DNA from: Betaproteobacteria bacterium
Lineage (GTDB): Bacteria > Pseudomonadota > Gammaproteobacteria > Burkholderiales > SG8-39
NCBI GenBank assembly: GCA_005881575.1
Contig: VBCA01000003.1
Location: 62,001 to 126,000 of the forward strand
Direction: 5' to 3'
Length of the DNA stretch: 64,000 nt
Numbering within the stretch: the stretch's first letter is position 1; the number at the start of each line of letters is the position of its first letter. Below the pieces are notes generated by a model. That model saw only the letters and a program-made list of their open reading frames with translations, had not been told where the DNA came from and ran no database searches. Made by a program: the position numbers and the translations under genes. Of this stretch, positions 43,943 through 61,254 are shown in pieces.

Positions 43943-44815
43943 TCACTCCCCGAGCATCTTCATCGCCTGCACCAGGCTCGTTCTCATGCGGTTGAACGAC
44001 CCGGCGAGAATCGCGATCTCGTCCTTGCCCTTGCTCGTGAATTCCGGGGCGTCCAGATTGCCGAGGCTTACCTCGTCGGCGATCCGCGACAGCCGGGTGA
44101 CGGGCCGGATCACGATGGCGTGCAGCATGAGATTGAGGGCAACGAAGATGAAGGCGAAGACTCCAGTGAGCGAGATCATGAAAACTTTGAAGGTGTCGTC
44201 GGCGCGCTTGATGGGCAAAGTCATCGGGACGGACACGATCTGTGCGCCGACCACCTCGTTCAGCTTCCAGCCGAAGCCGTTCGCCGGACCGTAGAGCTCG
44301 ATCATGGTCTTCGGAGCGGTGTCCACGGTGCTGTGGCAGTACAGGCAGGCGGCGTCCTTGATCTGCAGCGGCCGGGCCATGTACAGAGCCCGGCCGGTCG
44401 GCGTATCGCGCTCGCCGATGATCTCGGGGCGATCGGGCGCCTGGCGGAACTGGTTTACGACGTCGGCTTCCCAGTCGGTGGCCCGGTTGCGGGGATTGGT
44501 CGGATTGAGCGTCGCTTCCTTGTAGTCGTAGTCGGCGAATTTCTTGCGCAGGTCGCTGAACTGCTCTTGGGCGGCGAAGGCGGGGACCGACTGCGGCAGG
44601 AACTGGTACTTCATCTGCGTCTCGAGCAGCGGGCGCACCTGCTTGGAGGTGTAGCCGCGCGTCGCGAGCGCAGATTCCATCATGATTCGTGCGTGCTGGA
44701 GCACCTCGTCGCGCGCATTCTGCCGGAGGAGATCAAGCGATACATAGGCGGCGATCGCCAGACCGACCAGGAAAATTGCGAGAAACACGATGTTGAACTT
44801 GACGATCAGTCTCAT
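43943..44815 (-). CDS. Heme-c sensor protein (DUF3365) with HAMP domain
   Basis: Membrane protein of 290 residues from the ATG at 44815, behind TAGGAGGGAAGG. The longer track start is rejected. A first helix lies at about 9-28. The periplasmic DUF3365/Tll0287-like domain holds the heme-c motif CLYCH at 157-161. A second helix at about 211-234 is followed by a HAMP domain at about 236-288 that ends the protein, so there is no output domain. It could pass a redox or gas signal to the kinase gene just downstream (30 bases). The heme needs the Ccm system in this window. Confidence 0.88.
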   Translation of the reverse strand: MRLIVKFNIVFLAIFLVGLAIAAYVSLDLLRQNARDEVLQHARIMMESALATRGYTSKQVRPLLETQMKYQFLPQSVPAFAAQEQFSDLRKKFADYDYKEATLNPTNPRNRATDWEADVVNQFRQAPDRPEIIGERDTPTGRALYMARPLQIKDAACLYCHSTVDTAPKTMIELYGPANGFGWKLNEVVGAQIVSVPMTLPIKRADDTFKVFMISLTGVFAFIFVALNLMLHAIVIRPVTRLSRIADEVSLGNLDAPEFTSKGKDEIAILAGSFNRMRTSLVQAMKMLGE

Positions 44816-44826
44816 GACCTTCCCTC

Positions 44827-45741
44827 CTACCGTTGCGTGCCGGATTGCGCGCTCTTCGGGTTGCTCGGCTCCTTCGGAGCGTATTTTCCCGGGAACAGCA
44901 CCTTGTCCCACTCCGGATGTTCCCGGAGATTCTCGATCAGCTTGCGGCGAAACTCGGAATCCTTGGATCGAACCTCAAACCGTTTGACGAAATTTCTTCT
45001 GATCGCGGAACCGGCTTTGAGCCAGGCTTCGACCTCGGCGTAGGTCACCTCGTGTTCGCGCTTGGGCTCCGACCGCCTGTTCTTGAACCGTTCGAGCAAC
45101 ACCGGCAGGTCGTCCCGAAAATGCCGCGGCATGTTTTTTACGAACTCCGCCGAGAGGCGCGAACCGAGAGTTGCCGGCTGCTCGCCCCTCCGGGTGATGA
45201 ACTCGCCTCCCTTCGCGTCGCGCGCGATTCTCTGCACGCCTTTCCTGCCGATTTCGGAAAATCTCAGGGCGCCGGATTCGACGTATATGTCGGTGGAGCC
45301 GTCGCCCGCGTTCAGAACGGCGGTCGCTTCCCCCGCATTGATCTCGACGCGCGGCGTGAGGTAGCGATATTGTGTGCCCTTGCCGGATTTTTTCTGGGTG
45401 AACTTTGCCCAGCCGGACAGCACCGCGATCTCAGCGTGGCCGCGCTCTCCCGGGGCGATGTTCGTGAGCATGGCGCGGGCGCCCTGGCTGAGGTTGAGGA
45501 TCGCGCCGTCCTGGAATTCTATCTGCGCCTGCCCTTTGGGGTCGATCGACAATATGTCTCCGTCTCCCAGCCTTACGCCTTGGGTGGCGGTGTACAGCGT
45601 CGCTCCCCGTATCAGCTCGACGCTTCCTTCGACCAGCGTCAGGGTGCCCGCAGTTTGAGCAAAAGCGGAAGCGCAGGCGCCCAATAGGGCCGCTGCAAGC
45701 TGGAAACGGGGTCTCAGCACCCCCCGGCCGCATCCGCGCAT
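44827..45741 (-). CDS. FecR-domain periplasmic protein
   Basis: Protein of 304 residues from the ATG at 45741 with signal peptide (QLAAALLGACASAFAQ). The FecR domain begins with TLTLVEGSVELIRGATLYTATQGVRLGDGDILSID and continues with IEFQDGAILNLSQGARAML. It has no sigma-factor partner here. A charged C-terminal part (KRFEVRSKDSEFRRKLIENL) follows. It is the first gene of the operon with the HAMP protein and kinase, and it is divergent from the cyclase-FHA gene. It may act as a periplasmic scaffold or sensor. Confidence 0.85.
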   Translation of the reverse strand: MRGCGRGVLRPRFQLAAALLGACASAFAQTAGTLTLVEGSVELIRGATLYTATQGVRLGDGDILSIDPKGQAQIEFQDGAILNLSQGARAMLTNIAPGERGHAEIAVLSGWAKFTQKKSGKGTQYRYLTPRVEINAGEATAVLNAGDGSTDIYVESGALRFSEIGRKGVQRIARDAKGGEFITRRGEQPATLGSRLSAEFVKNMPRHFRDDLPVLLERFKNRRSEPKREHEVTYAEVEAWLKAGSAIRRNFVKRFEVRSKDSEFRRKLIENLREHPEWDKVLFPGKYAPKEPSNPKSAQSGTQR

Positions 45742-45876
45742 GTCCCCCCCGACTTCGCTTGCGTAGCTTCTGGAAGGCATTCTAGAGCAGACGGTAACGC
45801 ACACTCAAGTGCGACGAGCCTAGAACTGCAGACTGACTTGCTGGCCTTTTGGCTTATACTTTGCGCCGCCGCCAGA

Positions 45877-46797
45877 ATGGCTCGCACCTTTCCGATGGAT
45901 AAGAAGCCCGTCAATCTCGCCGTTCTGTTCGCCGACATCACCGGGAGCACGCGCCTGTACGAGAAGCTCGGCAACGCACGGGCGCTCGAGTGCGTCGGGC
46001 TCTGCCTCAATATCATGCGCGAATCGGCGCTCGGCTGCGGGGGGCGGGTGGTCCAGACGATCGGCGACGAGGTCCTGTGCGTGTTCCCGACCGCCCTGGC
46101 GGCGAGCCAGGCCGCGACCGAGATGCAGTCGCGGGTCGAGATGCAGGAACCGGTATCGGGGCAGCGCCTCCAGATCCATGTCGGCTTGCAATTCGGTCCC
46201 GTCCTTGAGGAGGGGCAGAACGTGTTCGGCGACTGCGTCAATGTGGCGGCTCGAATGGTGAAGCTCGCCAAACCTTCCCAGATCATTGCCGGCGGCGAGT
46301 GCGTGGCAGCGTTGACCGGGACGATGAAGGCTCAGACCCGCGCCCTCGACAAGCTTCCCGTCAAGGGACGCGAGCAAGAAGTCGACGTCTACGAGGTTCT
46401 ATGGCGGCAGAGCGAGGAGTTGACCTACATGGCGAGCCGGGCGCCCGGCCCGCCGAATCAGGCTCAGGTGCGCCTATGCCTGAGGCACGGCGGGAAGGAA
46501 ATGATCCTGGGCCCTGGGCGCGAGCTAATAAAGCTCGGCCGGGAGAACTCCTGCGACATCGTCATAGCGGACCGCAAAGCGTCTCGCGAGCACGCACGGA
46601 TCGAGCGCCGCCGCGACAAATTCGTTTTGGTCGACGTCAGTTCCAACGGCACCTTCGTAACGTTTCAAGGTGAGACTGAAATGGCGGTGAAGCGCGAGGA
46701 GGTCCTTCTGCGCGGCCGCGGATCGATCAGCTTCGGGCATCCGTACAGCGCCGATCCGACGGAAGTGGCGGCGTTCGAAATTCAAACTCCGACCTGA
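45877..46797 (+). CDS. Class III adenylate/guanylate cyclase with C-terminal FHA domain
   Basis: Cytoplasmic protein of 306 residues; the ATG at 45877 is chosen, with an ATG at 45895 as alternative and the longer track start less likely. The cyclase domain shows the metal aspartates D20 (VLFADITGSTRLY) and D64 (QTIGDEVLCVF), and the block VFGDCVNVAARMV. The FHA domain (about 205-290) has IKLGRENSCDIVIADRKASREHARIERRR and SSNGTFV, so it should bind phosphothreonine. The kinase at 42563 is the obvious partner. The product, cAMP or cGMP, cannot be decided. It is divergent from fecR and convergent with coxE. Confidence 0.88.
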   Translation: MARTFPMDKKPVNLAVLFADITGSTRLYEKLGNARALECVGLCLNIMRESALGCGGRVVQTIGDEVLCVFPTALAASQAATEMQSRVEMQEPVSGQRLQIHVGLQFGPVLEEGQNVFGDCVNVAARMVKLAKPSQIIAGGECVAALTGTMKAQTRALDKLPVKGREQEVDVYEVLWRQSEELTYMASRAPGPPNQAQVRLCLRHGGKEMILGPGRELIKLGRENSCDIVIADRKASREHARIERRRDKFVLVDVSSNGTFVTFQGETEMAVKREEVLLRGRGSISFGHPYSADPTEVAAFEIQTPT

Positions 46798-46874: not shown

Positions 46875-48098
46875 TCAGGCCGCGCGGCGATATTCGTGCG
46901 AACCCTCGAGCGCTCGGGCGAGCTCGACGAGGCTCGCGACGTTGTGCACCGGCAGGAACTCGTCCACGTGCGGCAGCATCGCACGCACGCCCGCCGGCCG
47001 CGCCTCGAATCCCTGGTAACGCAGGAGCGGATTCAGCCAGATGAGCTTCCTGCACGACTTGTGCAGGCGCTCCATCTCCTTCGCCAGCCCTTCGCCGACG
47101 TCGCCGTCGAGGCCGTCGGAGATCACCAGCACGACCGCGTTTTGGCCGAGGACTCTGCGCGACCATCGCAGGTTGAACTCCCGCAGGCAATTTCCGATGC
47201 GCGTTCCGCCCGACCAGTCGGCGATCGCATCCGATACCCCGCTCATCGCGACGTCCACGTCGCGATGGCGCAGGTAGCGGCTGATGTTGGTGAGCCGCGT
47301 GCCGAAGACGAAGCTTGTCACGCGGTCGCGATCGTTGGTGATCGCGTGCAGGAAGTGTAGAAACATCCTCGAGTAGCGGTTCATCGAGCCCGACACGTCG
47401 CACAAGACGACGAGAGGCGGATGGCGCCGCTGGGGCGAGCGCCGTTTGAGCGGGATGATCTTCGCGCCGCTCCTCAAGCTTGCGCGCAAGCTCGCGCGCA
47501 GGTCGACCCGCCCGCCGCGGGGGTCGGGCTCGAAGCGCCGCGTGCGGATTTCCGGTATCGGCAGGCGCAGGTTCGCGAGCATTTTTTTCGCCTGCGCTAT
47601 CTCCTCGCTCGTCATCGTCTCGAAGTCCGCGTGCTGCAGCACCTCGCGGGACGAAAAGCTGAAGGTCGCATCGAGCTCGGTTTCCTGCGGCGGCTCGGCG
47701 GGCGTTTCCTTGGGTTTTTTCGGCTTCGGGTACAGCGCGTCGGCGACGCGATTGGACGCCGAAGGCTCCTCGTTGGGGCCCGGGCGTCCATAGACCTGCG
47801 GGAGGAACATCGCCATGACGCGCTCGAGCAGCTGCGGGTCGCGCCAGAAGATGTGGAAGGCCTGGTCGTAGATCTCGAACTGCTCGCGCCGACCGAGAAA
47901 GACGCTCGCGAGAGTCCAGTAGAAGTCTTCGCGCCGCTCGACTCCGGCGACTTCCAGCGCGCGCACCGCGTCGAGCACGCGATCGGGCCCGATCGGCAGA
48001 CCCGCGGCGCGCAGCACGCGGGCGAAGTGCATGACGTTCTCCGCGAGGCGGCCGTCCTCGGTCGATTCACCCAAGTTCACTGGTTTTCCGCGCGCCAC
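46875..48098 (-). CDS. coxE: CoxE-like VWA-domain protein
   Basis: CoxE/YehP-type protein of 407 residues, GTG start at 48098 behind GATGAGG. The metal-ion-dependent adhesion site is D234-x-S236-x-S238 (CDVSGSMNRYS). CoxE and the AAA ATPase CoxD together assemble the CO dehydrogenase active site, so it is the expected partner of the MoxR/CoxD-like gene at 55106. Here it is the last gene of the ccm operon, 25 bases after ccmI. The N-terminal half is helical; the rest is the VWA fold. A cytoplasmic location is expected. Confidence 0.9.
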   Translation of the reverse strand: MARGKPVNLGESTEDGRLAENVMHFARVLRAAGLPIGPDRVLDAVRALEVAGVERREDFYWTLASVFLGRREQFEIYDQAFHIFWRDPQLLERVMAMFLPQVYGRPGPNEEPSASNRVADALYPKPKKPKETPAEPPQETELDATFSFSSREVLQHADFETMTSEEIAQAKKMLANLRLPIPEIRTRRFEPDPRGGRVDLRASLRASLRSGAKIIPLKRRSPQRRHPPLVVLCDVSGSMNRYSRMFLHFLHAITNDRDRVTSFVFGTRLTNISRYLRHRDVDVAMSGVSDAIADWSGGTRIGNCLREFNLRWSRRVLGQNAVVLVISDGLDGDVGEGLAKEMERLHKSCRKLIWLNPLLRYQGFEARPAGVRAMLPHVDEFLPVHNVASLVELARALEGSHEYRRAA

Positions 48099-48123
48099 GG
48101 CGACCTCATCCCGGTGGTCATCG

Positions 48124-49365
48124 TCATTTTCCCGAAGGCTCGCGCAGCTCGGTGTCGATCACTACGCTTACACTCTTGGCCCCGACGTTCACGGGAGCGC
48201 TCAGGCCCTGCAAATCGCCGGGGCTCGCGGTGGCGTTGGCGGATTTCGAGACGCGCGCGCCGATGATCACGCGCGGGAAAGCGGAGAGCTTCATCTGCGG
48301 CGCCATCGCCATCGTATCGTCGAGGGTGAACTCGGCGGGAAGATCGCCTGCGCGCTTGCGCAGGATGGCGAGCGGCATGCGCGGACCTTCGGCCGCCCGG
48401 GCAAAAATGAAAACGATGTCGCCGGGAGCGACTTTCCCGGCGAGCTCCGGGGCGAGCCTGACCACGCCGCTCACGCGGTTTCCGCCTTGGGCGGGTGCCG
48501 GTTTCGCGACCTGCGCCTTTCCGCCCGGGGAGCCGGCGAGGGAGCGCGCCTGCACGATGCTCGCCTGCACCCTTTGAATCATGTCGGACTCCTTCGGCAG
48601 AAGCCCCAGCACGCGTTCCCAATGGCGTATCGCAGCGCGGGGGTCGCTCCGGTTGAAGGCGGCGGTGCCTGCGAGGAGCAGCGCCTTCACGTTGTCGGGG
48701 TCGATGGCGAGCGCGCGCAGGATTATTTTTTCCGGCTCTCCTTGCAGCGTCCTCCCCTGCGCCATCGCGAGAGCGTCCGCGTAGTCGGCGAGGAGCTGGG
48801 CGTCGCGCGGCATGCGCGCGGCGGCCTTGGCGTAGGCTTCGCTGGCCTCGCCGAAGCGCCCCAGAACCGCGTACGAACGCGCGAGCATCGTCCAGCCCTC
48901 GGCGTCCTCGGGGTTGTCCTTCATGCGCGCGGCCAGACGCACGACCGCGGCCTCGAACTGCGCCTTGGTCATGCCGTGCGGGTTCGCGCCCCCGGCTGCC
49001 TGCGGCAAAACCGCGCTCGGATTGCCGACCGACAAGTAGACCGCCAGCGCGCAGATCGGAATCGCCAGGCCCAGCGCGAGCGCGGCGCCGCGCGCTCCGC
49101 GAGGAGTTTCCGCCGAGGCTTCGCCCGTGCCCACGTCCGCGATCAGGCGCGCCTCGATCTCGAGGCGCGCCTTTTCGTACTGGTCCGGTGCAAGTGTTCC
49201 GGCGCGCAAGTCGGCTTCCAGCTCGCGCAGCTGGTCGCGATACACCGCAGCGTTCACGGCGTCGCACGTCTCGCTCGGGCGCACCACGCGTCGTGCGAGC
49301 GGCGGCACGATGAAGAGGAGCGCGACCGCGATGAGGACGACGCCGAGAACAACGAAAATGGTCAG
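48124..49365 (-). CDS. ccmI: Cytochrome c maturation protein CcmI (TPR), CTG start
   Basis: CcmI/CycH-type apocytochrome chaperone of 413 residues. The usual CcmI N-terminus M-TIF-x-hydrophobic is matched only if translation begins with CTG at 49365 (TIFVVLGVVLIAVALLFIVPPL). That CTG overlaps the ccmH stop (CTGA). No ATG, GTG or TTG fits in this frame. Two membrane helices are present, with a TPR-rich periplasmic domain from about 140 on (DAEGWTMLARSYAVLGRFGEASEAYAKA, LRALAIDPDNVKALLLAGTAAF). It holds the apocytochrome and feeds it to CcmF/CcmH. Confidence 0.88.
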   Translation of the reverse strand: MTIFVVLGVVLIAVALLFIVPPLARRVVRPSETCDAVNAAVYRDQLRELEADLRAGTLAPDQYEKARLEIEARLIADVGTGEASAETPRGARGAALALGLAIPICALAVYLSVGNPSAVLPQAAGGANPHGMTKAQFEAAVVRLAARMKDNPEDAEGWTMLARSYAVLGRFGEASEAYAKAAARMPRDAQLLADYADALAMAQGRTLQGEPEKIILRALAIDPDNVKALLLAGTAAFNRSDPRAAIRHWERVLGLLPKESDMIQRVQASIVQARSLAGSPGGKAQVAKPAPAQGGNRVSGVVRLAPELAGKVAPGDIVFIFARAAEGPRMPLAILRKRAGDLPAEFTLDDTMAMAPQMKLSAFPRVIIGARVSKSANATASPGDLQGLSAPVNVGAKSVSVVIDTELREPSGK

Positions 49366-49829
49366 CGTCGCTCCCCTTGAGTGCCGGCGAGTAGCTCCGC
49401 CGCGCGCTTTCGATCCGCCGCGGTCATCTCGGCCACTTCCATGGACCGTCGACGCAGCAGGCGCCGGAGCAGCACAGCGAACCCGGCGGCGAGCAGCAGC
49501 AAGGGTCCGAACCACAGCAGTACGGTCGTTGCCTTGAGGGGCGGCCGATAGAGAACGAAGTCGCCGTAGCGCGCAACCAGGTATTCGACTACTTGTGCGT
49601 CGCTGTTCCCTTCGCGCATCCTCTCGCGAATCTGATTCCTCAGGTCCTCGGCGAGCGGCGCGTTCGAGTCGGCGAGGGTCTGGTTCTGACATACGAGGCA
49701 GCGTAGCTCCTCGGCGAGCGTCATCACCCTCTTCTCGAGCACCGGGTCCTGCGCTGCCGGAGCGGCTTCCTTCGCTGGAGCCGCAGCCGTTGCGATGGCG
49801 AGCAGCAGGAGCGCGAGCAGCCTAAGCAC
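49362..49829 (-). CDS. ccmH: Cytochrome c maturation protein CcmH
   Basis: Thiol-disulfide protein of 155 residues with signal peptide and a C-terminal membrane helix. The active-site motif is LRCLVCQNQTLADSNA, with C44 and C47. It keeps the heme-binding cysteines of apocytochrome c reduced and works with CcmF and CcmI. The gene overlaps ccmG by eight bases and ccmI by four, so all three are translationally coupled. Confidence 0.95.
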   Translation of the reverse strand: MLRLLALLLLAIATAAAPAKEAAPAAQDPVLEKRVMTLAEELRCLVCQNQTLADSNAPLAEDLRNQIRERMREGNSDAQVVEYLVARYGDFVLYRPPLKATTVLLWFGPLLLLAAGFAVLLRRLLRRRSMEVAEMTAADRKRAAELLAGTQGERR

Positions 49830-50349
49830 GGCTGAGCTCTTGCACCAGCGGGAGCACCTTCTCTTTGACGATCTGCGGCGTGAGCGGGCCGATGCACTTG
49901 TAGCGGACGACCCCGAGCTTGTCGATCACGTAGGTCTCGGGCACGCCGTAGACGCCGTAGTCGATCCCGACCTTCCCGTCGAAATCGAAGATGGAGACCT
50001 TGTAGGGATCGCCCATTCCTTTCAGCCACGCCAGGCCGTCCTCGCGCTTGTCTTTGTAGTTGAGTCCGTAGACCGGCACGGCGCCGCTTGCTGCGAGCTC
50101 AAGCAGCACGGGGTGCTCCTCGCGGCAGCTCACGCACCATGAGGCCCAGACGTTGAGGATCCAGACCTTGCCGAGCATGTCGCGCTCGGTAAACGTTTGC
50201 TTCGCCTCCTGCAGCAGTGGCAATTCGAAGTGCGGCGCGGGCTTGCCGATGAGCGGAGAGGGCACCTTGCGCGGATCGAGCGTGAGCCCGACGGCGAGCA
50301 GCGCGACCAGTGCGGCGAAGATGGCGAGCGGCAGGACGAAGCGATTCAT
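49822..50349 (-). CDS. ccmG: Thiol:disulfide interchange protein CcmG/DsbE
   Basis: Membrane-anchored thioredoxin-like protein of 175 residues. The helix is at about 7-22, and the active site WASWCVSCREEHP has C72 and C75. GVYGVPETYVID is the cis-proline region. It reduces apocytochrome c before heme ligation. It lies 18 bases after ccmF and overlaps ccmH by eight bases. Confidence 0.96.
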   Translation of the reverse strand: MNRFVLPLAIFAALVALLAVGLTLDPRKVPSPLIGKPAPHFELPLLQEAKQTFTERDMLGKVWILNVWASWCVSCREEHPVLLELAASGAVPVYGLNYKDKREDGLAWLKGMGDPYKVSIFDFDGKVGIDYGVYGVPETYVIDKLGVVRYKCIGPLTPQIVKEKVLPLVQELSRA

Positions 50350-50367
50350 CGGATGCGCCTCACTCCG

Positions 50368-52344
50368 TCATCGCACCGGCACGGCGGAGTACTGTTCCTG
50401 CGGTCGCTTCGCCGCGAGGCGGTAGCGCCGGTCGCTCGCGGCGAGAGCGCCTCCGAGCGCCATGATGAGGCATCCGCCCCAAATCCAGTCGACGAAAGGC
50501 TTGTGATACACGCGGACGATCCAGCCAGTCGCGCCCACCGAATCGCCGAGCGACACGTACAGGTCGCGGGTCAGTCCGGGATTGATCGCGGCCTCGGTCA
50601 TCGGCATGTTCTGAACCGTGTAGAGGCGCTTCTCCGGATAGAGCGTCGTGACCGGGCGGCCGTCCCTGGTCACCTCGATCTGGCCGCGCCCCGCGACGTA
50701 GTTGGGTCCCTGCACGTCCCTCACGCCGTCGAAGCGGAACGTATAGCCCCCGGCCTCGACGGTGTCGCCCGGTTCCATGCGCACGTCCTTCTCTGTCTCG
50801 TAGCCCTTCACCAGCGTGACGCCGACGACGAACACCGCCACCCCGAAGTGCGCGAGCAGCATGCCGTAGGTCGAGCGCGGCACGCTCGAAAGGCGCGTCC
50901 AGGCGTTCGATCCGCTCGCGGCGTTGCGTATCTTTTCGTACAACTGGACGAAGCCGCTCGCGGCGACCCAAGCCGCGAGCAACATTCCCAAGGCGACGAG
51001 CGCGCCCCAGCGTCCCATCGCGAACGGCAGCGTGAGCGCCGCGACGACGCTCGCCGCGAGAGCCCAGCGAAGGCGCGCGGCGAGATCGGGGAGGCTCGCT
51101 TTCTTCCAGCGCGCAAGCGGCCCCACGCCCATGAGGAAAAGCGCGGGGGCCATGAGCGGCACGAACACCGTCTCGAAGTACGGCGGCCCGACCGAGATCT
51201 TGCCCAAGCCCGACGCGTCGAGCGCGAGCGGATACAGCGTTCCGAGCAGCACCGAGCCGGCCGCCGCGACGAAGATCACGTTGTTCGCGAGCAGCATCGA
51301 TTCGCGCGACAGCGGCTCGAAACCGCCGCCCAACCCGATCTTCGGCGCGCGCCACACGTACAGGAGGAGCGAGCCGCCGATCACGATCACGAGCAGCGCG
51401 AGTATGAAGATGCCGCGGGTGGGATCGGTCGCGAAGGCGTGTACGGAAGTGAGGACCCCCGAGCGCACCAGGAAGGTCCCGAGCAGACTCAGCGCGAAGG
51501 CGACGATCGCGAGCAGCACCGTCCAGCTGCGGAAGGCGCCGCGCTTTTCGGTGACCGCGAGCGAATGGATGAGCGCTGTCCCGACGAGCCAAGGCATGAA
51601 GGAAGCATTCTCCACGGGATCCCAGAACCACCACCCGCCCCAGCCCAGCTCGTAGTACGCCCAGCCGCTGCCGAGCGCGATGCCCACGGTGAGGAAGCAC
51701 CACGCCGCGGTCGTCCAGGGGCGCGACCAGCGCGCCCAGGCCGCGTCGAGCCTGCCGGAGAGGAGCGCCGCGACGGCGAAGGAAAAAGCGATAGAGAAAC
51801 CGACGTAGCCCATGTAGAGCATCGGGGGATGAATCACCATGCCGGGGTCCTGCAGGAGCGGGTTCAAGTCGCGTCCGTCTGCGGGGACCGGGAAGCGCCG
51901 CAGGAACGGGTTCGAAGTGAACAAGATGAACAATAGAAAGCCGGTGCTCACCAGTCCCATCACTCCGAGCACGCGGGCCACCATCTCGCGGGGCAAGTGG
52001 CGGCTGAAGAGTGTGACGCCGAAAGTCCACACCCCGAGCATCAGGAGCCACAGCAAGATCGAACCCTCGTGCCCACCCCACACGCCCGAGATGCGATAGT
52101 GAAGCGGCAGCATGGAGTTGGAGTTGGACTCCACATAGGCGACGGAGAAATCGTTGGAGGCGAAGGCGTAGGCGAGGCAGCCGAAGGCCGCGGCCACGAA
52201 CACGAACTGTCCTCGGGCCGCGGGCCGCGTCGCGTCCATCCATACGCTGTCGCCGCGCGCCGCTCCCGCGAGCCCCAGTATTGCCTGTGCCAGCGCGAGA
52301 CACAATGCGACGGCCAGCGCCAACTGTCCGAGTTCGGGAATCAT
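50368..52344 (-). CDS. ccmF: Cytochrome c heme lyase subunit CcmF
   Basis: Multi-helix inner-membrane protein of 658 residues, the core of heme ligation. The start is the ATG at 52344, which overlaps the ccmE stop (ATGA); the longer track ORF is rejected. The heme-handling tryptophan motif [20 protein letters not shown] is clear, and conserved histidines occur in loops (for example [11 protein letters not shown]). It accepts heme from CcmE and joins it to apocytochrome c. It is the largest gene of the operon. Confidence 0.96.
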
Positions 52345-52817
52345 TTGCGTTCGGCGCCACCCTCCACGAGGGTATGCGTCGCCTTCAGGTTGATGGATTG
52401 CGCCTGTTTGATCGCGTCGGCTGCGGCCGGGGGCATGTAGTTCTCGTCGTGCTTGGCGAGCACCTCGCTCGCGTAGAAGACGCCGTCGCCGCCGAGCTTG
52501 CCCTGCGTCACCACTCCTTTGCCCTCGCGGAACAGATCGGGCAGGATCCCGCGATAGACCACCGGTACGTTCTTCGCCGTGTCGGTGACGACGAATTGAA
52601 CAGTGAGCCCGTCCGTCTGGCGCTTCAGGGTGCCGGGCACCACCAGTCCGCCGATGCGGAATGCGCGCCCCTGCGGCACCTCTTTCGCCTCGACTTGCGT
52701 GGGCGTGAAGAAAAATACGAGATTCTCGCGGAACGCGGCGAGCACGAAGGCTGCCGCCACGCCGAGCGCAACGAGGCCGCCCGCGATCATCGCCAGCCGT
52801 TTCTGCCTGGGCTTCAT
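52341..52817 (-). CDS. ccmE: Heme chaperone CcmE
   Basis: Periplasmic heme carrier, 158 residues, anchored by an N-terminal helix ([22 protein letters not shown]). H123 in [12 protein letters not shown] is the covalent heme-binding histidine, with Y127 in the conserved motif. It overlaps ccmD and ccmF by four bases each. Confidence 0.97.
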
Positions 52818-52990
52818 CTGTCGCCTTCTGCGGTGCCGTGGAGGCGAAGGCGTGCGAGAGCGCTGCGCTTACGCAACGCGAGCAGCACGATTTCCGCACT
52901 CACGAGACCGAACGCCACGAGGTAGGAGCCCCAAACATAGAACGCATAGCCGCCCATTGCAAGAAAATTATCCAAGCTGCCCCAGTTCAC
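52814..52990 (-). CDS. ccmD: Heme exporter protein CcmD
   Basis: Small membrane protein of 58 residues, GTG start at 52990 that overlaps the ccmC stop (GTGA). One helix ([27 protein letters not shown]) is followed by a basic tail. It is read from a longer track ORF that is otherwise a shadow of ccmC. CcmD helps release holo-CcmE from the CcmABC complex. The 4-base overlaps with ccmC and ccmE support the call. Confidence 0.88.
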
Positions 52991-53721
52991 GCGGATCGCC
53001 TCGCGTAGTCCCCAACCCACTCGCTCGCGCGTTCGCGCTCGAGCATGATGCAGCGCGCCCGCGTCAGTGCAGCTGCGATGCTGTAGAACCAGAAGCCGAA
53101 AGCCATCACCGCCATGCCGGTCAGCATCGTCGCCGCCATGGTCGGGGCCTTGGTAAGGCTCACCGACGCGCCCTGGTGCAGCGTGTTCCACCACTTCACC
53201 GAAAAGTAGATGATCGGGATGTTCACGACGCCGACCAGAGCAAGCACCGCCCCGGCCTTGTCGGCGCGGCGAGGATCGTCGATCGCCGCCTGGAGAGCCA
53301 TGAAGCCGAAATAGAGAAAGAGCAGAATCAGCTCCGAAGTCAGCCGCGCGTCCCACACCCACCAGGTGCCCCAGGTGGGTTTTCCCCAGAGAGAACCGGT
53401 CCAGAGCGCGAGAAAGGTAAACAGCGCCCCGGTGGGGGCGACCGCGCTCGCCATCATGCCCGAAAGCCGGGTGTTGAACGCGAGCCCCAGCCCCGCCCAG
53501 AACGCCATGACCAGATAGAGGAACATCGACATCCAGGCCGCCGGAACGTGGATGAAGATGATCCGGTAGGCATCGCCCTGCTGGGCATCGGTAGGGGCGA
53601 CGAAAAATCCCAGGTACAGGCCAGCGGCGCAGGTGATCGCCGCCAGAACGCCGAACCACGGCGCAAGCTTTCCCGCCAGGGGGAAGAAAGTTTGTGGAGA
53701 CGAGTACTTGAACCAATTCAC
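52987..53721 (-). CDS. ccmC: Heme exporter protein CcmC
   Basis: Inner-membrane heme-handling protein of 244 residues with six helices. The tryptophan motif WGTWWVWDARLTS is characteristic, and HVPAAWMSMFLYLVMAF holds a conserved histidine. It loads heme onto CcmE. It lies 57 bases downstream of ccmB, the largest gap in the operon, and overlaps ccmD by four bases. Confidence 0.96.
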   Translation of the reverse strand: MNWFKYSSPQTFFPLAGKLAPWFGVLAAITCAAGLYLGFFVAPTDAQQGDAYRIIFIHVPAAWMSMFLYLVMAFWAGLGLAFNTRLSGMMASAVAPTGALFTFLALWTGSLWGKPTWGTWWVWDARLTSELILLFLYFGFMALQAAIDDPRRADKAGAVLALVGVVNIPIIYFSVKWWNTLHQGASVSLTKAPTMAATMLTGMAVMAFGFWFYSIAAALTRARCIMLERERASEWVGDYARRSA

Positions 53722-53778
53722 AGCTGCTCCTGCCTCAGGCCGGGCCTATCACCTGCATTAGATGACGCTGCCGGCCGC

Positions 53779-54447
53779 TTATTCCGTCGAAATACGCAGC
53801 GCCACCGCTGCCGCCCATGGCGCGAAAGCTCCCGCGAACACGAGGAGCGCTCCGAGCAACAGAAGCTGCGCTTGTCCGCCGAGTCCCGAAACAGCCGCAT
53901 CCGCCGCGCCCGCTCCGATGATAAGAACCGGAACGTACAAGGGCAGTACCAGCAGAGAGAGTAGCGCCCCTGCACCCCGCAATCCCAGAGTCAGCGCCGC
54001 GCCGATCGCGCCGATCAGGCTGAGGACCGGGGTTCCGAAAGCCAGGGATAGGGTCAAGGTCCAGAGGAACTCTCGAGGAAAATCAAATTGTAGCGCCAAA
54101 ACAGGCGAGATCAGGACGAGCGGCAGCCCGGATATCACCCAGTGCGCCAATATCTTTGCCGCGACCGTCATTCCGAGGGGCGTGGCGCCGAGCAGCATCT
54201 GCTCGAGCGTTCCGTCTGCATGATCGGAGGCGAACATCCGGTTGAGCGCGAGCATCGAGGCGAGCAGCGCCGCGACCCAGATGACTCCCGGCGCGATCGT
54301 GCGAAGGAGCGCCGGATCGGGGCCCACGCCCAGCGGAAACAGGCTCACGACGATGACAAAAAAGAGCAGCACCGTCAACACGTCGGAGCTGCGCCGCACG
54401 GCGAGCAGCAGGTCGCGGTAGATCACGCATCGGAGCGCGGCCAGCAT
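53779..54447 (-). CDS. ccmB: Heme exporter protein CcmB
   Basis: Membrane subunit of the CcmAB transporter, 222 residues with six predicted helices, including VIWVAALLASMLALNRMFASDHADGTLEQML, which is family-typical. It works with the ATPase CcmA to release heme-loaded CcmE. It starts one base after the ccmA stop. Confidence 0.95.
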   Translation of the reverse strand: MLAALRCVIYRDLLLAVRRSSDVLTVLLFFVIVVSLFPLGVGPDPALLRTIAPGVIWVAALLASMLALNRMFASDHADGTLEQMLLGATPLGMTVAAKILAHWVISGLPLVLISPVLALQFDFPREFLWTLTLSLAFGTPVLSLIGAIGAALTLGLRGAGALLSLLVLPLYVPVLIIGAGAADAAVSGLGGQAQLLLLGALLVFAGAFAPWAAAVALRISTE

Positions 54448-54448
54448 C

Positions 54449-55096
54449 TCAGGTCGCCTCGAGATCGATGCGCAGGGCCGCGGCGGCCGTTATCCTCGCC
54501 TCTAGGTGCGTCGTGAGGATCACAGCGGCGCCCCGCGAAAGCTGCTCCGCAATCAGATCCTGCACGTGCTCTACGGCCGCAGCATCGAGCGCCGCAAACG
54601 GCTCATCCAGGATCCAAAGCGGCGCCCCTTTGCTCAAGGCCAGACGCGCGAGAGCCACCCGCCGCCGCTGTCCCTGCGACAGCACCCGAGCGGGCAGGTT
54701 TTCGCAACCGGCAAGGCCCAAGCGTCGCAACGCCTCGCCGATCTGCGCAGCCTGCCTGGGAACGCCGGCGAGCGTGCACGCCACGTGCAGATTCTCGGTA
54801 GCGGTCAGGTCATCCTTGATTGAATTGGCGTGTCCGACGTAGACGAGCTGCCGCCAGAATTCCTCCTGAAGCCGCCGGATATCTTTTCCGCCCCAACGCA
54901 CTTCGCCGCGGGTGGGTTCGAGCAGGCCGCATGCGATGCGCAGGAGGCTCGTCTTGCCGGAACCGTTGGCTCCTGCGATCCGGAGCAGCTCGCCGCTGCG
55001 CAGCGTGAAGTTCAGCGCGCCGAAGAGCTTGCGCTCGCCGCGCACGCAGTGGAGATCGACCGCCTGGAGCGAGGAGGTGCCCGCTATTTTTCCCAC
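54449..55096 (-). CDS. ccmA: Heme exporter ATP-binding protein CcmA
   Basis: ABC ATPase of 215 residues, GTG start at 55096. Walker A is GANGSGKT at 42-49, the signature is LSQGQRRRVALARLAL and Walker B is LWILDEPFAALD. It powers release of holo-CcmE with CcmB. It begins nine bases after the moxR stop, so it is probably transcribed with moxR. The ribosome site is weak, which would fit coupling to the upstream gene. Confidence 0.95.
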   Translation of the reverse strand: MGKIAGTSSLQAVDLHCVRGERKLFGALNFTLRSGELLRIAGANGSGKTSLLRIACGLLEPTRGEVRWGGKDIRRLQEEFWRQLVYVGHANSIKDDLTATENLHVACTLAGVPRQAAQIGEALRRLGLAGCENLPARVLSQGQRRRVALARLALSKGAPLWILDEPFAALDAAAVEHVQDLIAEQLSRGAAVILTTHLEARITAAAALRIDLEAT

Positions 55097-55105
55097 CGCA
55101 GCGGT

Positions 55106-56014
55106 CTAGGCGGCCGCGAGCTCCGCCCTGACCTCCGCGAGGAGGCGCTCGGCATCGCTGCCGCGTACGCGGGTGATGTCGTCCTGGTACTTGAGCAGGG
55201 TACCGAGGGTGTCGTTGACGGTCTGAGGGTCCAGGGTCATCTTGTCGAGGGCCACCAGCGCCTTCGACCAGTCGATCGTCTCGGCGACGCCGGGGAGCTT
55301 GAACAGATCCATCTTGCGCAGACGCTGCACGAAAGTCACGACCTCGCGGGAAAGGATCTCGGAGGCCTCCGGGGCCTTTCGTTTGAGGATCTCGAGCTCC
55401 CGCGCGGCGTCCGGATAGTCCACCCAGTGGTAGAAGCAGCGCCGCTTGATGGCGTCGTGGATCTCGCGAGTGCGGTTGGAAGTGAGCACGACGATCGGAG
55501 GCTCCGTGGCTCTCACCGTGCCGATCTCTGGGATAGTGATCTGGAAGTCCGACAGTACTTCGAGAAGATACGCCTCGAACGGTTCGTCGGTGCGGTCCAA
55601 TTCGTCGATCAACAGCACCGGCGCCGCGCCCTTACCGCCTTCGAGGGCCTGCATCAGCGGGCGCTTGATGAGAAAGCGCTCGGAGAAGATGTCCTTCGCG
55701 ACCGTGTCGCGCGACGTCCCTTGAGTCTCGGCCAGCCTTATCTCGATCATCTGGCGCGAATAGTTCCACTCATATACCGCCGAGGCGATGTCGAGGCCTT
55801 CGTAGCACTGCAGCCGAACGAGCGGGCGGCCGAGACCGCTGGCGAGGACCTTTGCGATCTCGGTTTTGCCGACGCCGGCCTCGCCTTCGAGAAACAGCGG
55901 GCGGTTCATCTTGAGGGCGAGGAATACCGCGGTGGCGAGGCTGCGCTCGGCGACATAGTCAGCGCGCGCGAGCAGGGCGAGAGCGTCGTCGATCGACTTG
56001 GGAAGCGTGCTCAT
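55106..56014 (-). CDS. MoxR-family AAA+ ATPase (CoxD-like)
   Basis: AAA+ ATPase of 302 residues. Walker A is GEAGVGKTEIAK (about 44-54) and Walker B with sensor is PVLLIDELDRTDEPFEAYLLEVLSD. The MoxR/CoxD group remodels partner proteins together with a VWA protein such as CoxE. That partner is at 46875, on the other side of the ccm genes. This gene is the first of the operon. An extended -10 box (TGGCATAAT) lies only seven bases upstream, so the transcript may be leaderless. Confidence 0.93.
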   Translation of the reverse strand: MSTLPKSIDDALALLARADYVAERSLATAVFLALKMNRPLFLEGEAGVGKTEIAKVLASGLGRPLVRLQCYEGLDIASAVYEWNYSRQMIEIRLAETQGTSRDTVAKDIFSERFLIKRPLMQALEGGKGAAPVLLIDELDRTDEPFEAYLLEVLSDFQITIPEIGTVRATEPPIVVLTSNRTREIHDAIKRRCFYHWVDYPDAARELEILKRKAPEASEILSREVVTFVQRLRKMDLFKLPGVAETIDWSKALVALDKMTLDPQTVNDTLGTLLKYQDDITRVRGSDAERLLAEVRAELAAA

Positions 56015-56020
56015 ACGCGG

Positions 56021-56032
56021 ATTATGCCAGCC
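56021..56032 (-). promoter_or_regulatory. Candidate extended -10 promoter of the moxR-ccm-coxE operon
   Basis: On the minus strand GGCTGGCATAAT contains TG-G-CATAAT, an extended -10. It lies seven bases before the moxR ATG, placing transcription start at or near the ATG. The same 12 bases occur upstream of the malonyl-CoA decarboxylase gene. No good -35 is seen. Confidence 0.4.
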
Positions 56033-56040
56033 TGGCCGGC

Positions 56041-56066
56041 AAAAAACCTTCCGCGGGAGGGAAGGT
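56041..56066 (-). terminator. Intrinsic terminator after malonyl-CoA decarboxylase
   Basis: On the minus strand ACCTTCC-CTCCCGC-GGAAGGT is followed by TTTTTT, a good stem with a T-run, 26 bases after the decarboxylase stop. It separates that gene from moxR, so moxR-ccm-coxE needs its own promoter. Confidence 0.75.
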
Positions 56067-56091
56067 CGACTTACGGGGAGCCCTCAGGGGT

Positions 56092-57450
56092 CTAGGCGGT
56101 GACCGCGCGCCGGCGGGCAGCGCCGCGCATGAGCAGCGAATCTTTCGCCAATACTCCGAAGCGGCGAGCGGCGACGATGCGGCGCTCCCTGGCGTAGGCC
56201 TCGTGGTTGCGCTCCAGGTCGTCGAGGCGGTAGACGTAGTTCACCATGAGCCCCGCCGAGCGGCGCATGCCCGCGACCGAGATATCGCCGAGCCAGTTGA
56301 GGCGCTCCAGGCGCGCGCCGTTGCCGAGGTGAAACCGCGCCACCGGGTCGAGCGGCTCGTCGTCCTGCTTGGCGTAGAGAAGATAGTAGGCGCACAGACG
56401 GCTGAGCTGTTTCAGGATTTCCGCGGCGCGCAGCTTGTCCTTGAACCAGTCCGGCACGTCGAGCTTGGCGAGCAAGGCGGCGAGCTCCGCGTGCCTGGGA
56501 TCGCCTTCCCGCAGCCCCGTACCACCGGTAAGCCATTTGCGGAAACCCGGGATCGGCGAGAGAGTGGCGAAGGTCTTCAGGCGCGGAAATTCGCGGCCGA
56601 GGTCTTCGGCGACCTGCTTGATGAGAAGATTGCCGAACGAGATGCCACGCAGGCCTTCCTGGGGATTCGTAATCGAGTAGAAGATCGCGCAGTCGGCCGA
56701 AGCGGGATCCACTACCGGGGAGCCGAGGGCGAGCAGCGGCTGCACCTTGGCGCTCATGCCGCGGGCGAGCGCCACTTCGATGAAGATCACCGGCTCGTCG
56801 GGCAGCGCCGGATGGAAAAAAGCATAGCAGCGGCGGTCGGCCTGGAGCCGGCGGCGCAGGTCGTGCCAGCCCTGGATCTCGTGCACGGCCTCGTACTGGA
56901 TCAGCTTCTCCAGCACCAGCGCGGACGTGCGCCAGTCGATGCGCTGCAGGACCAGGAATCCGCGATTGAACCAGGAACGGAACAGACGGGCGAGGTCGGT
57001 TTCGATGACCGCCCAATGCGGATGGTCGGCCAAGCCCCGCAGCAGCCGGCGCCGCATTTCCAGGAGAACGCCGATTCCGCCGGGGGCCATGTTGAGGCGC
57101 CGGAAGAGCTCTTGGCGCGGCGATTCCACGGCCCGCTGCAGGTGCAAGAGCTTTGCGGGGGACGGGTCCTTGCGGTAGGCGTCGGCGGATCGGCCGACCG
57201 CCTCGGGGTCGAGAGAAAACTCCTTGACGAGTAAGCTGAAAAAAACCTCCAGTGCCGGCTCATCCAGCGATTGATACGCTGCGAGCGCCTCGCGCGCGAT
57301 GAAGGCGCCGGACCCCTCGCCGCGCTGGGACTGGAGTTCGTGGCAGATCGACGCCGCGCGGCGGGCGCTGCGCACGGCAGCGCGCGAAGGCGCCCCCGGG
57401 TGGGTAGGCGCGGACCCCAGCAGACGCTGCAAGAAAGAAGGCTTGTACAT
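56092..57450 (-). CDS. Malonyl-CoA decarboxylase
   Basis: Malonyl-CoA decarboxylase family protein of 452 residues. The N-terminal helical domain is followed by the GNAT-like catalytic domain, with WHDLRRRLQADRRCYAFFHPALPDEPVIFIEVAL and SITNPQEGLRGISFGNLLIKQV as recognisable blocks. The C-terminal part has LCAYYLLYAKQDDEPLDPVARFHLGNGARL. It converts malonyl-CoA to acetyl-CoA in the cytoplasm. It stands alone between the coxSLM genes and the moxR operon, with a terminator on both sides. Confidence 0.92.
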   Translation of the reverse strand: MYKPSFLQRLLGSAPTHPGAPSRAAVRSARRAASICHELQSQRGEGSGAFIAREALAAYQSLDEPALEVFFSLLVKEFSLDPEAVGRSADAYRKDPSPAKLLHLQRAVESPRQELFRRLNMAPGGIGVLLEMRRRLLRGLADHPHWAVIETDLARLFRSWFNRGFLVLQRIDWRTSALVLEKLIQYEAVHEIQGWHDLRRRLQADRRCYAFFHPALPDEPVIFIEVALARGMSAKVQPLLALGSPVVDPASADCAIFYSITNPQEGLRGISFGNLLIKQVAEDLGREFPRLKTFATLSPIPGFRKWLTGGTGLREGDPRHAELAALLAKLDVPDWFKDKLRAAEILKQLSRLCAYYLLYAKQDDEPLDPVARFHLGNGARLERLNWLGDISVAGMRRSAGLMVNYVYRLDDLERNHEAYARERRIVAARRFGVLAKDSLLMRGAARRRAVTA

Positions 57451-57514: not shown

Positions 57515-57526
57515 ATTATGCCAGCC
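57515..57526 (-). promoter_or_regulatory. Candidate extended -10 promoter of malonyl-CoA decarboxylase
   Basis: AGGCTGGCATAAT on the minus strand is shared with the moxR box (12 identical bases) and contains TG-G-CATAAT. It lies 65 bases before the decarboxylase ATG. A weak or absent -35 leaves this tentative. Confidence 0.4.
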
Positions 57527-57540
57527 TAGCGTGACAACGC

Positions 57541-57571
57541 AAAAAACGCTCCCCCAAGCCAGTTGGGGGAG
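57541..57571 (-). terminator. Intrinsic terminator after coxSLM
   Basis: CTCCCCCAA-loop-TTGGGGGAG forms a nine-base-pair stem, with a T-run after it on the minus strand (GCGTTTTTTG). It lies 33 bases beyond the coxM stop and ends the coxS-coxL-coxM transcript. Confidence 0.8.
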
Positions 57572-57603: not shown

Positions 57604-58401
57604 CTATTTCATCGCCGCTTCGACCGCACGCTTCGCCATGACCGTGACCAGGTGCGCCCGGTAGTCGGCCTTTGCGTGCAGATCCGAGTTGAGGCCCTTT
57701 TCGGGCACCGCGATGTTCGCCACGGACTCGGGGGCGAATTTCGCCGCGAGCGCTTTTTCCATCGCCGCCACGCGGAACACGCTCGGGGCCGCGCCGGTCA
57801 CTGCGACCCGCACGCCCGAGCCGGAGTCGGCGACGAAGACCCCGACGATGGCGTAGCGCGAGGCCGGATTCTTGAACTTCATGTAGGCTGCCCGCTTGGG
57901 CACCGGGAAGCTCACCGAGGTGATGATCTCACCCTTCTGCAAGGCGGTCTCGTACATGCCCTTGAAGAATTCGTCCGCGGCGATCTTGCGCTTGTTGGTG
58001 ACGATGGTCGCCCCGAGGGCGAGAACCGCCGCCGGATAATCTGCCGCCGGGTCGTTATTGGCGAGCGAGCCGCCGATCGTGCCCATGTTGCGGACCATAC
58101 GGTCGCCGATGCCTCCGGCGAGGCTCGCGAGCGCGGGAATCGCCTTCTTCACTGCGGCGGAAGAGGCGACTTCGGCGTGACGAGTCATCGCGCCGATGGC
58201 GACCGCTTTGCTGTCCCCCTTGATGCCTGAAAGCTCTTTGATCGTGCCGAGATCGATGACCGCGGACGGATGCGCCAGGCGCAGCTTCATCGCCGCGATC
58301 AGGCTCTGGCCGCCGGCGAGCAGCTTTGCGTCGCCGTCTTTCGCGAGCACCTTGGCCGCGTCGGCGACCGTTTTAGCCTTCTGGTAGCTGAATGAATACA
58401 T
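57604..58401 (-). CDS. coxM: CoxM-like FAD-binding subunit of a molybdenum hydroxylase
   Basis: Medium FAD subunit, 265 residues. The FAD-binding motifs are LAGGQSLIAAMKLRLAHPSAVIDLG and RNMGTIGGSLANNDPAADYP. It passes electrons from the iron-sulfur subunit to a quinone or other acceptor. It is the last gene of coxS-coxL-coxM. The C-terminal part has VPKRAAYMKFKNPASRYAIVGV, family-typical. Confidence 0.95.
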   Translation of the reverse strand: MYSFSYQKAKTVADAAKVLAKDGDAKLLAGGQSLIAAMKLRLAHPSAVIDLGTIKELSGIKGDSKAVAIGAMTRHAEVASSAAVKKAIPALASLAGGIGDRMVRNMGTIGGSLANNDPAADYPAAVLALGATIVTNKRKIAADEFFKGMYETALQKGEIITSVSFPVPKRAAYMKFKNPASRYAIVGVFVADSGSGVRVAVTGAAPSVFRVAAMEKALAAKFAPESVANIAVPEKGLNSDLHAKADYRAHLVTVMAKRAVEAAMK

Positions 58402-58410
58402 GCGCGTCTC

Positions 58411-60777
58411 CTAGGCAGCTTTCTTCATCTTGCTTTCCTGGCACGCCCGCCAGATCCTCTGCGGCGTCGCCGGCATCTCGATGTCGCGAACGCCGAGCGC
58501 GTCGGTGAGCGCGTTCATCACCGCGGCCGGGGCGCCGATCGCGCCTGCTTCGCCGCAGCCCTTCACCCCGAGCGGATTGTGCGTGCAGGGCGTTTCCTTC
58601 GTGCCCACCTTGAATGCCGGAACGTCGTCCGCGCGCGGCATGCAGTAGTCGAGGTAGGAGCCCGTGACGAGCTGGCCCGACTCCTTGTCGTAGTGGCAGC
58701 CCTCGGTCAGCGCCTGCCCGATGCCTTGGGTCAATCCGCCGTGCACCTGTCCCTCTACGATCATCGGGTTGATGATCTTGCCGAAGTCGTCCACTGCGGT
58801 GAAATTCACGATGCTCACCGTGCCGGTATCGGGATCCACCTCGACTTCGCAGATGTGGCTCCCGGCCGGGAAGGTGAAGTTGGCCGGATCGTAGAAGGCG
58901 TTCTCGTTCAAGCCGGGCTCCAGCTTGTCCAAAGGATAGTTGTGCGGCACGTAAGCCGCGAGAGACACTTCGGCGAACGCTTTTTTCTTGTCGGTGCCTC
59001 TCACGACGAACGCGCCGTCCTTGAATTCGATGTCGGCTTCCGCGGCCTCCATGAGGTGCGCCGCGATTTTCTTGCCTTTGGCCACGATCTTGTCCACGGC
59101 CTTCACGATCGCAGTCCCTCCTACGGCGATCGAGCGCGACCCGTAGGTGCCCATGCCGAAGAGGATCTTTCCGGTGTCGCCGTGCACGATGTCGATGTCC
59201 TCCATCGGGATGCCGAGGCGATCGGCTACCACCTGCCCGAACGTGGTCTCGTGTCCTTGCCCGTGGGAATGCGAACCCGTGAACACCGTCACCTTGCCGG
59301 TCGGATGGACGCGGACTTCACCCGCTTCGAAGAGGCCCGCGCGCGCGCCTAGCGCTCCGGCGACGTTCGAAGGCGCGATGCCGCAGGCCTCGATGTAGCA
59401 GGAATAGCCCAGGCCGCGGAGCTTCCCGCGCCTTGCCGCGTCGGCCCTCCGTCCCTGGAACCCGGCGACGTCGGCAATTTTCAGCGCTTCGGCGAGCGTC
59501 GCCTCGTAGTTGCCGGTGTCGTACAGGAGCGCGACCGGGGTCTGGTACGGGAAGGTCTTGATGAAATTGCGCCGGCGGATCTCGGCAGGGCTCATCTTCA
59601 TTTCGCGTGCAGCGGTTTCGACCAGCCGTTCGACGACGTAAGTAGCCTCGGGCCGCCCCGCGCCGCGGTAAGCGTCGACCGGCGCCGTATTGGTGAACAC
59701 CGCGGTGACCTCAGCGTAGATTACCGGCGTGGTGTACTGCCCGGCGAGCAGCGTCGCGTAGAGAATGGTCGGAATGCACGATGCGAAAGTGGAGAGGTAC
59801 GCCCCCATGTTCGCCGTGGTGGTGACGCGCATCGCGAGGAATCGTCCCTCCCGGTCGAGGGCCAGCTCCGCCCGGGTCACGTGATCGCGGCCGTGCGCAT
59901 CCGAGACGAAGGATTCGCTGCGGTCCGCGGTCCATTTCACCGGGCGGTTGATCTGCTTCGAAGCCCAGGTGCAGACCACGTCCTCGGCGTAGAGATAGAT
60001 CTTCGAGCCGAAGCCCCCGCCCACGTCGGGCGCTACCACCCGCACCTTGTGCTCGGGAAGTCCCAGCACGAAAGCGGTCATGAGCAGCCGCTCGACGTGG
60101 GGGTTCTGGTTGGCGACGTAAAGCGTGTAGCTGTCGTCGGCGCGCGAGTAGGTTGCGTTCGCGGCCCGCGGCTCGATCGCGTTGGGGACGAGCCGGTTGT
60201 TGAGGAATTCGAGCGTGGTGACGTGCGCGGCGCCGGAGAAGGCCTTGTCCACCGCGGCCCTGTCGCCTAGGCCCCAGACGTAGCAGGTGTTGTCCGGCGC
60301 GATGTCGTGCACCACCGGCGCCCCATTTTTGCGCGCCTCTGCCGCGCGTACCACCGCGGGCAGCTCCTCGTAATCCACTTTCACCAGCTCGGCGGCATCC
60401 CGCGCCTGCGGGTAAGTTTCCGCGATCACAATCGCGACGTGGTCGCCGACGTAGCGCGCCTTGCCCTGCGCGAGGCAGGGGTGCGGCGGCTCCTTCATCG
60501 GCTGGCCGTTGACGTCGGTGATGAGCCAGCCGCAAGGCAGCCCGTTGACCTTGGCCCCGGCGAGATCGTCGCCGGTGAAGATGGCGACGACCCCGGGCGC
60601 TTTGAGCGCTTTGTCCTTCTTGATCGATTTGATCTTCGCGTGGGCGTGAGGCGAGCGCACGAAATGCGCATGCGTCTGCCCCGGCAGCGCGACGTCGTCG
60701 GTATAGTTGCCTGCACCGGTGAGAAAACGATAGTCCTCTTTGCGCTTGATCGAAGCGCCGATATAGGGGGTCGCCAT
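58411..60777 (-). CDS. coxL: CoxL-like large subunit of a form II (CO dehydrogenase-like) molybdenum hydroxylase
   Basis: Molybdopterin-cytosine-dinucleotide-binding subunit, 788 residues. GGGFGSK is at 253-259. The diagnostic motif reads AYRGAGR at 369-375, the form II pattern; form I CO dehydrogenase has AYxCSFR there. CO oxidation is therefore not certain, and an aldehyde or aromatic substrate is possible. The near-terminal [19 protein letters not shown] holds the active-site glutamate. It follows coxS by three bases, and coxM starts nine bases after its stop. Confidence 0.95.
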
Positions 60778-60780
60778 GCT

Positions 60781-61254
60781 CTAGCTCCTCATCGTCTGCG
60801 AGGCGGCTTTGATCGCCTTGACGATATTGTGATACCCGGTGCAGCGGCACAGATTCCCGTCGAGCTGCTCGCGGATCAGTTCCTCGCTGGGGTCGGGGAA
60901 GTTCTTCACCAGATCGATCGCGCTCATGACCATGCCGGGAGTGCAGAAACCGCATTGCAGGCCGTGGTGCTGGCGGAAGGCCTCCTGCATCGGGTGCAGC
61001 GTGCCGTCCGCCTTGGCGATGCCCTCGATCGTGACGAGGTCGGCCCCTTCGGCCTGCATCGCCAGCATATTGCAGGACTTCACGGCGCGGCCGTTCATGT
61101 GGATGGTGCACGCGCCGCACTGGGCGGTGTCGCAGCCGACGTGGGTACCGGTAAGACGCAGGCTGTCGCGGATGAAGTTGACGAGCAGCGTGCGTTCTTC
61201 GACCTCGGCGCTCGCCGGCTTGCCGTTGACGGTCAGGGAGACCTTGACGGTCAT
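60781..61254 (-). CDS. coxS: CoxS-like 2Fe-2S subunit of a molybdenum hydroxylase
   Basis: Small subunit, 157 residues, with two 2Fe-2S sites: C41, C46, C49, C61 ([16 protein letters not shown]) and C101, C104, C136, C138 ([14 protein letters not shown] and LCRCTGYHN). It is the first gene of the coxSLM operon. It is divergent from XdhC, about 270 bases away, which carries both promoters. Confidence 0.96.

Follow-up and report, generated by a model that had tools for sequence, protein, structure and literature searches.

The gene order in the DNA analysed here (the window, 64,000 nucleotides of a betaproteobacterial contig) raises the question of whether heme c attachment and molybdenum hydroxylase maturation share an assembly module, or whether a cytochrome c maturation (ccm) operon has simply come to lie between moxR and coxE. 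On the minus strand, the order after coxS-coxL-coxM (61254-57604) runs through a terminator-like hairpin, mcd, another such hairpin, moxR and ccmA to ccmI (55096-48124) to coxE, all genes from moxR to coxE being co-directional and head to tail. With gene families assigned via profile HMMs (Pfam, NCBIfam), the features read as follows.

60781-61254, minus strand: coxS-like [2Fe-2S] subunit of a xanthine-oxidase-family Mo hydroxylase (NCBIfam matches to family Fe-S subunits)
58411-60777, minus strand: coxL-like Mo subunit (Pfam MoCoBD domains; AYRGAGR motif read in translation)
57604-58401, minus strand: coxM-like FAD subunit (NCBIfam matches)
57549-57571, minus strand: intrinsic-terminator-like hairpin and T tract 3' of coxM, kept in the genus
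57515-57523, minus strand: second copy of TGGCATAAT, upstream of mcd (sequence)
56092-57450, minus strand: mcd, malonyl-CoA decarboxylase (Pfam MCD and MCD_N)
56043-56067 (approximate), minus strand: terminator-like hairpin and T tract between mcd and moxR (sequence, folding)
56021-56029, minus strand: TGGCATAAT, extended -10-like promoter element 6 nt before the moxR ATG (conservation)
55106-56014, minus strand: moxR, coxD-like MoxR-type AAA+ ATPase (profile HMMs)
54449-55096, minus strand: ccmA (TIGR01189, NF010061)
53779-54447, minus strand: ccmB (TIGR01190)
52987-53721, minus strand: ccmC (TIGR01191)
52814-52990, minus strand: ccmD, GTG start, overlapping the end of ccmC (read from sequence; conserved in relatives)
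52341-52817, minus strand: ccmE (PF03100, NF009729)
50368-52344, minus strand: ccmF (TIGR00353, PF16327)
49822-50349, minus strand: ccmG, DsbE family (TIGR00385)
49362-49829, minus strand: ccmH (PF03918)
48124-49365, minus strand: ccmI (TIGR03142, Ig_CycH; sequence)
46875-48098, minus strand: coxE, VWA-domain protein (VWA_CoxE, PF05762)

The Ccm system I set is complete, with CcmA to CcmI all present. The initial annotation had described a full ccmABCDEFGHI set lying in one direction between moxR and coxE, nine bases after the former and 25 bases before the latter; the profile HMMs, together with the sequence in the case of ccmD, bear out the set, and the coordinates give the same two spacings. 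The start codon of ccmI is uncertain and is probably a non-ATG codon (CTG or ATT) near the ccmH stop. The coxE gene is the sole coxE match in the window's genome, and Rfam and tRNA scans of the window returned no matches. About 2 kb downstream of coxE, 43943-44857 encodes a HAMP protein with a Tll0287-like domain and a CxxCH heme-c motif; this gene adjoins a FecR-like gene and a Ser/Thr kinase gene and is conserved in the genus. On the opposite strand, 45838-46797 encodes adenylate/guanylate cyclase and FHA domains in one protein, near a Ser/Thr kinase gene (42563-43912).

As the window's genome is a draft assembly in 86 contigs, the unusual gene order could in principle reflect an assembly or binning artefact joining two unrelated contigs. 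The genus sample comprises six genomes of uncultured soil Betaproteobacteria. In five of them moxR is followed by ccmA (G000, which is the window's genome, G008, G034, G061 and G062), and in four ccmI is followed by coxE (G000, G008, G034 and G061). The full block is spanned by the window's own contig only, the other genus contigs ending inside it; no contig contradicts the order, and every other contig agrees at whichever junction it covers. The short moxR-ccmA and ccmI-coxE gaps are similar in other genus members, and tight spacing and single direction are kept among members with 88-97% CoxE identity. Since both junctions recur on separate contigs with similarly short gaps (genus members BP_12, BP_14 and BP_43 have similar sample names and may stem from one study), a chimeric assembly is rejected, and an artefact of any such kind is next to impossible. 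The comparison of gene order proposed in the initial annotation thus found the same two junctions on independent genus contigs.

How might this block be transcribed? In ten genomes of the genus and its relatives, exactly six bases separate the sequence TGGCATAAT from the moxR ATG downstream of it (56021-56029 in the window; loci L041, L045, L053, L054, L079, L096, L097, L098 and L120), and these six bases vary. The element has 12 distinct occurrences in the 3.7 Mb of collected sequence and 10 of these are at the moxR site, a proportion that is not a genome-wide rate, the set being enriched for moxR loci and including many near relatives. Because TGGCATAAT stands six bases before the ATG, its position predicts a transcript that probably starts at the ATG itself, as a leaderless message. 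A sigma-54 reading of the element was dropped, as the -12 element and the spacing misfit. The element is found also in genera without ccm in the moxR-coxE gap and is therefore probably older than the insertion. The copy upstream of mcd may be what remains of the moxR promoter after insertion of mcd, which lies before moxR in G000, G034 and G062 and is absent from that position in G008 and G061. In another part of the family a motif that is roughly CAAATNCCGGAAAATGC occurs ∼40 bases before moxR (L101, L137, L147, L149, L176 and others), and this may be a different promoter.

Terminator-like T tracts are present upstream of moxR across the genus. The folding energy of the hairpin before moxR is weak or not unusual (z -0.8), and the hairpin after coxM is stronger. 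A terminator upstream of moxR had been taken in the initial annotation to indicate a separate operon. A terminator-like hairpin is indeed present there, accompanied by the conserved promoter-like element, and moxR probably does open a separate unit; what had been overlooked is mcd, which lies between two terminator-like hairpins. Spacing, promoter-like element and terminator-like site are all consistent, at the level of sequence, with a single operon. Most likely, moxR-ccm-coxE would be expressed as one transcript, separate from coxSLM, from the older moxR promoter.

The arrangement appears to be confined to one genus. In the family, coxE was matched in 57 of 61 genomes and ccmF in 56 of 61, and on the fetched contigs from outside the genus that show both moxR and coxE there was no ccm operon between them. 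These other genera have moxR directly beside coxE, or have mcd or another gene between the two, with ccm elsewhere. Among 80 named GTDB loci, both genes are visible in 68, where the gap is empty in 35, holds mcd in 27 and other genes in 6, and in none of the 68 does it hold a ccm operon. The odd-gap genes resemble, as judged by eye from translations, a lactate/malate-type dehydrogenase, a tricarboxylate-transporter receptor, amidohydrolases and an ABC transporter; MgtE- and Nramp-like transporters, likewise judged by eye, adjoin mcd in one or two loci. A ccmA match (34%) in the gap of L158 proved to be a different ABC transporter. The loci with mcd in the gap include L113, L118, L120 and L128, and in the window's genus mcd is found upstream of moxR. 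In a wider sample of 160 genomes of the order, coxE is present in 35, and by the listed coordinates only the window's genome among these has ccmF within 10 kb of it. The moxR-coxE gap is thus a permissive slot that tolerates unrelated inserts, and because unrelated genes occupy the same gap in relatives, the arrangement has the look of a common accident of gene order, not of a new joint machine.

The histories of the two gene sets also differ. The ribosomal-protein tree places the genus next to g19, its sister genus, with weak support (0.64) for the g1-g19 grouping. Whether built from ribosomal proteins, from MoxR plus CoxE or from CoxSLM, the trees keep the genus with one set of close relatives (g19, g6, g4 and g12), several of these branches being weakly supported. 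The CcmA-H tree groups it not with g19 but with G182, from another family, and with g5/g3. Whereas the cox genes agree with the species tree, the ccm genes conflict with it, which points to an operon that was transferred or to a differentially kept lineage. In the CcmA-H set (50 rows), a constraint that groups the genus with the main g19 copy lowers the likelihood by 95 log units (AU p 0.0008), and one that groups it with the wider vertical clade by 87 log units (AU p 0.0002). In the CcmE-F-G set (75 rows; more taxa, smaller data), vertical placement gave AU p values of 0.17 and 0.32 and was not rejected. Moreover, g19 has a second ccm copy in the same wider group as the window's ccm, so that the latter may have been transferred or may equally be an older second copy that the genus retained through differential loss. 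The g19 second copy and the non-significant CcmE-F-G result would also suit a variant that differs in origin only, in which the operon is the family's native, vertically inherited copy and was merely moved. However, the full CcmA-H set rejects both the grouping with the main g19 copy and the vertical clade, and we regard this variant as rather unlikely.

Several genera of the family (L094, L285, L288 and L238) have a second ccmF, ccmH and ccmI, and ccmG gave no match between ccmF and ccmH at these four loci. Within the genus there is one ccmF locus per genome where ccmF was found, and ResB was not found in the six genomes, so that a second cytochrome c maturation system was dropped as a candidate. 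Together, one ccmF locus and no ResB suggest that, within the limits of draft genomes, the moxR-flanked ccm operon is the only system for cytochrome c maturation in the organism.

As for the enzyme next to the block, its CoxL carries the AYRGAGR motif and scores 666 with the CODH model TIGR02416, under the cut-off of 991. It therefore lacks the marks of a bona fide (form I) aerobic CO dehydrogenase and is classed from its sequence as a Mo hydroxylase of form II type rather than as a demonstrated CO dehydrogenase. MoxR and CoxE have the make-up of a MoxR AAA+/VWA (CoxD/CoxE) pair, one being an AAA+ ATPase and the other a VWA_CoxE protein, and their genes are neighbours in relatives. CoxD and CoxE of Oligotropha carboxidovorans take part in maturing the metal cluster of its CODH (PMC4240915), and MoxR/VWA pairs also serve in other cofactor insertions, e.g. 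NorQ/NorD (PMC9976466). Our literature search found no paper naming coxE, moxR and ccmA together, and none on MadB/MadC with MoxR or VWA.

Could MoxR and CoxE nevertheless mature c-type cytochromes, or couple heme attachment to the Mo hydroxylase, with clustering selected for that reason? Such a reading, which the initial annotation had raised as possible in linking heme c attachment with Mo hydroxylase maturation as a shared module, would, if true, make the block a genuine joint cofactor-assembly operon. It can draw on the short gaps and common gene direction that genus members share, as well as on the sensor-like gene with a c-type-heme (CxxCH) motif downstream of coxE. However, a shared module should recur across distant lineages and this order is restricted to one genus; other genera keep moxR and coxE with ccm elsewhere, mcd or unrelated genes take up the same gap, and the cox and ccm genes have different phylogenetic histories. 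As unrelated genes take the same position, position is weak evidence for a role of MoxR and CoxE in heme c attachment, and beyond position nothing here ties them to it. We therefore dropped the shared assembly module as unsupported by distribution or phylogeny, and consider it very improbable.

A milder possibility is that regulatory coupling is under selection, the ccm insertion having been retained because cytochrome c maturation is of use whenever the Mo hydroxylase is, for example when aerobic oxidation feeds the respiratory chain. The promoter-like element and terminator-like site before moxR are kept in those genus members that show moxR, and this is the only ccm copy found, both of which speak for such selection. 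Yet as the sole ccm operon it would need to serve all respiration, and the terminator-like site parts moxR-ccm-coxE from coxSLM. Selection for regulatory coupling thus seems to us quite unlikely.

We consider it likely, on the whole, that ccm was inserted into the permissive moxR-coxE gap and is co-transcribed there without forming a joint machine. According to this insertion model, a ccmABCDEFGHI operon, acquired by horizontal transfer or present as an older second copy, would have entered the form II cox cluster of an ancestor, from which one betaproteobacterial genus descends, and come to lie in its moxR-coxE gap; the other ccm would have been lost. One message covering moxR, ccmA-I and coxE would arise from the pre-existing, probably leaderless moxR promoter, with a terminator insulating this unit from coxSLM. 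CcmA-I would keep their ordinary system I cytochrome c maturation and MoxR and CoxE would keep acting on the Mo hydroxylase, so that the link would be shared transcription and not a shared machine.

The locus is a clear case of gene clustering without implied joint function. What appears to be a sole ccm operon occupies a gap open to unrelated inserts and seems now to be under another gene's promoter. At the level of one genus, a known operon has moved into a permissive gap of a known cluster and is probably coupled to its neighbours in transcription, which carries mild weight for operon evolution. The analysis also brings out a conserved, probably leaderless candidate promoter of moxR and shows that other genes, mcd most of all, often occupy the space between moxR and coxE.

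One of the closest known systems is the O. carboxidovorans cox cluster with coxDEFG (PMC4240915), where a CoxL/M/S-like enzyme likewise precedes CoxD, a MoxR-type ATPase, and CoxE, a VWA protein. Unlike in that cluster, CoxL in the window has AYRGAGR, a terminator-like site follows coxM, mcd precedes moxR, and ccm parts moxR from coxE. The moxR-mcd-coxE order of other genera in the family offers a second parallel, related moxR and coxE genes again enclosing a passenger, which there is the single mcd gene and in the window is a seven-kilobase ccm operon. The ccm genes themselves match a system I ccmABCDEFGHI operon, nine genes of the expected families in the standard order, and they differ from the ccm operons of the relatives examined in sitting between moxR and coxE.
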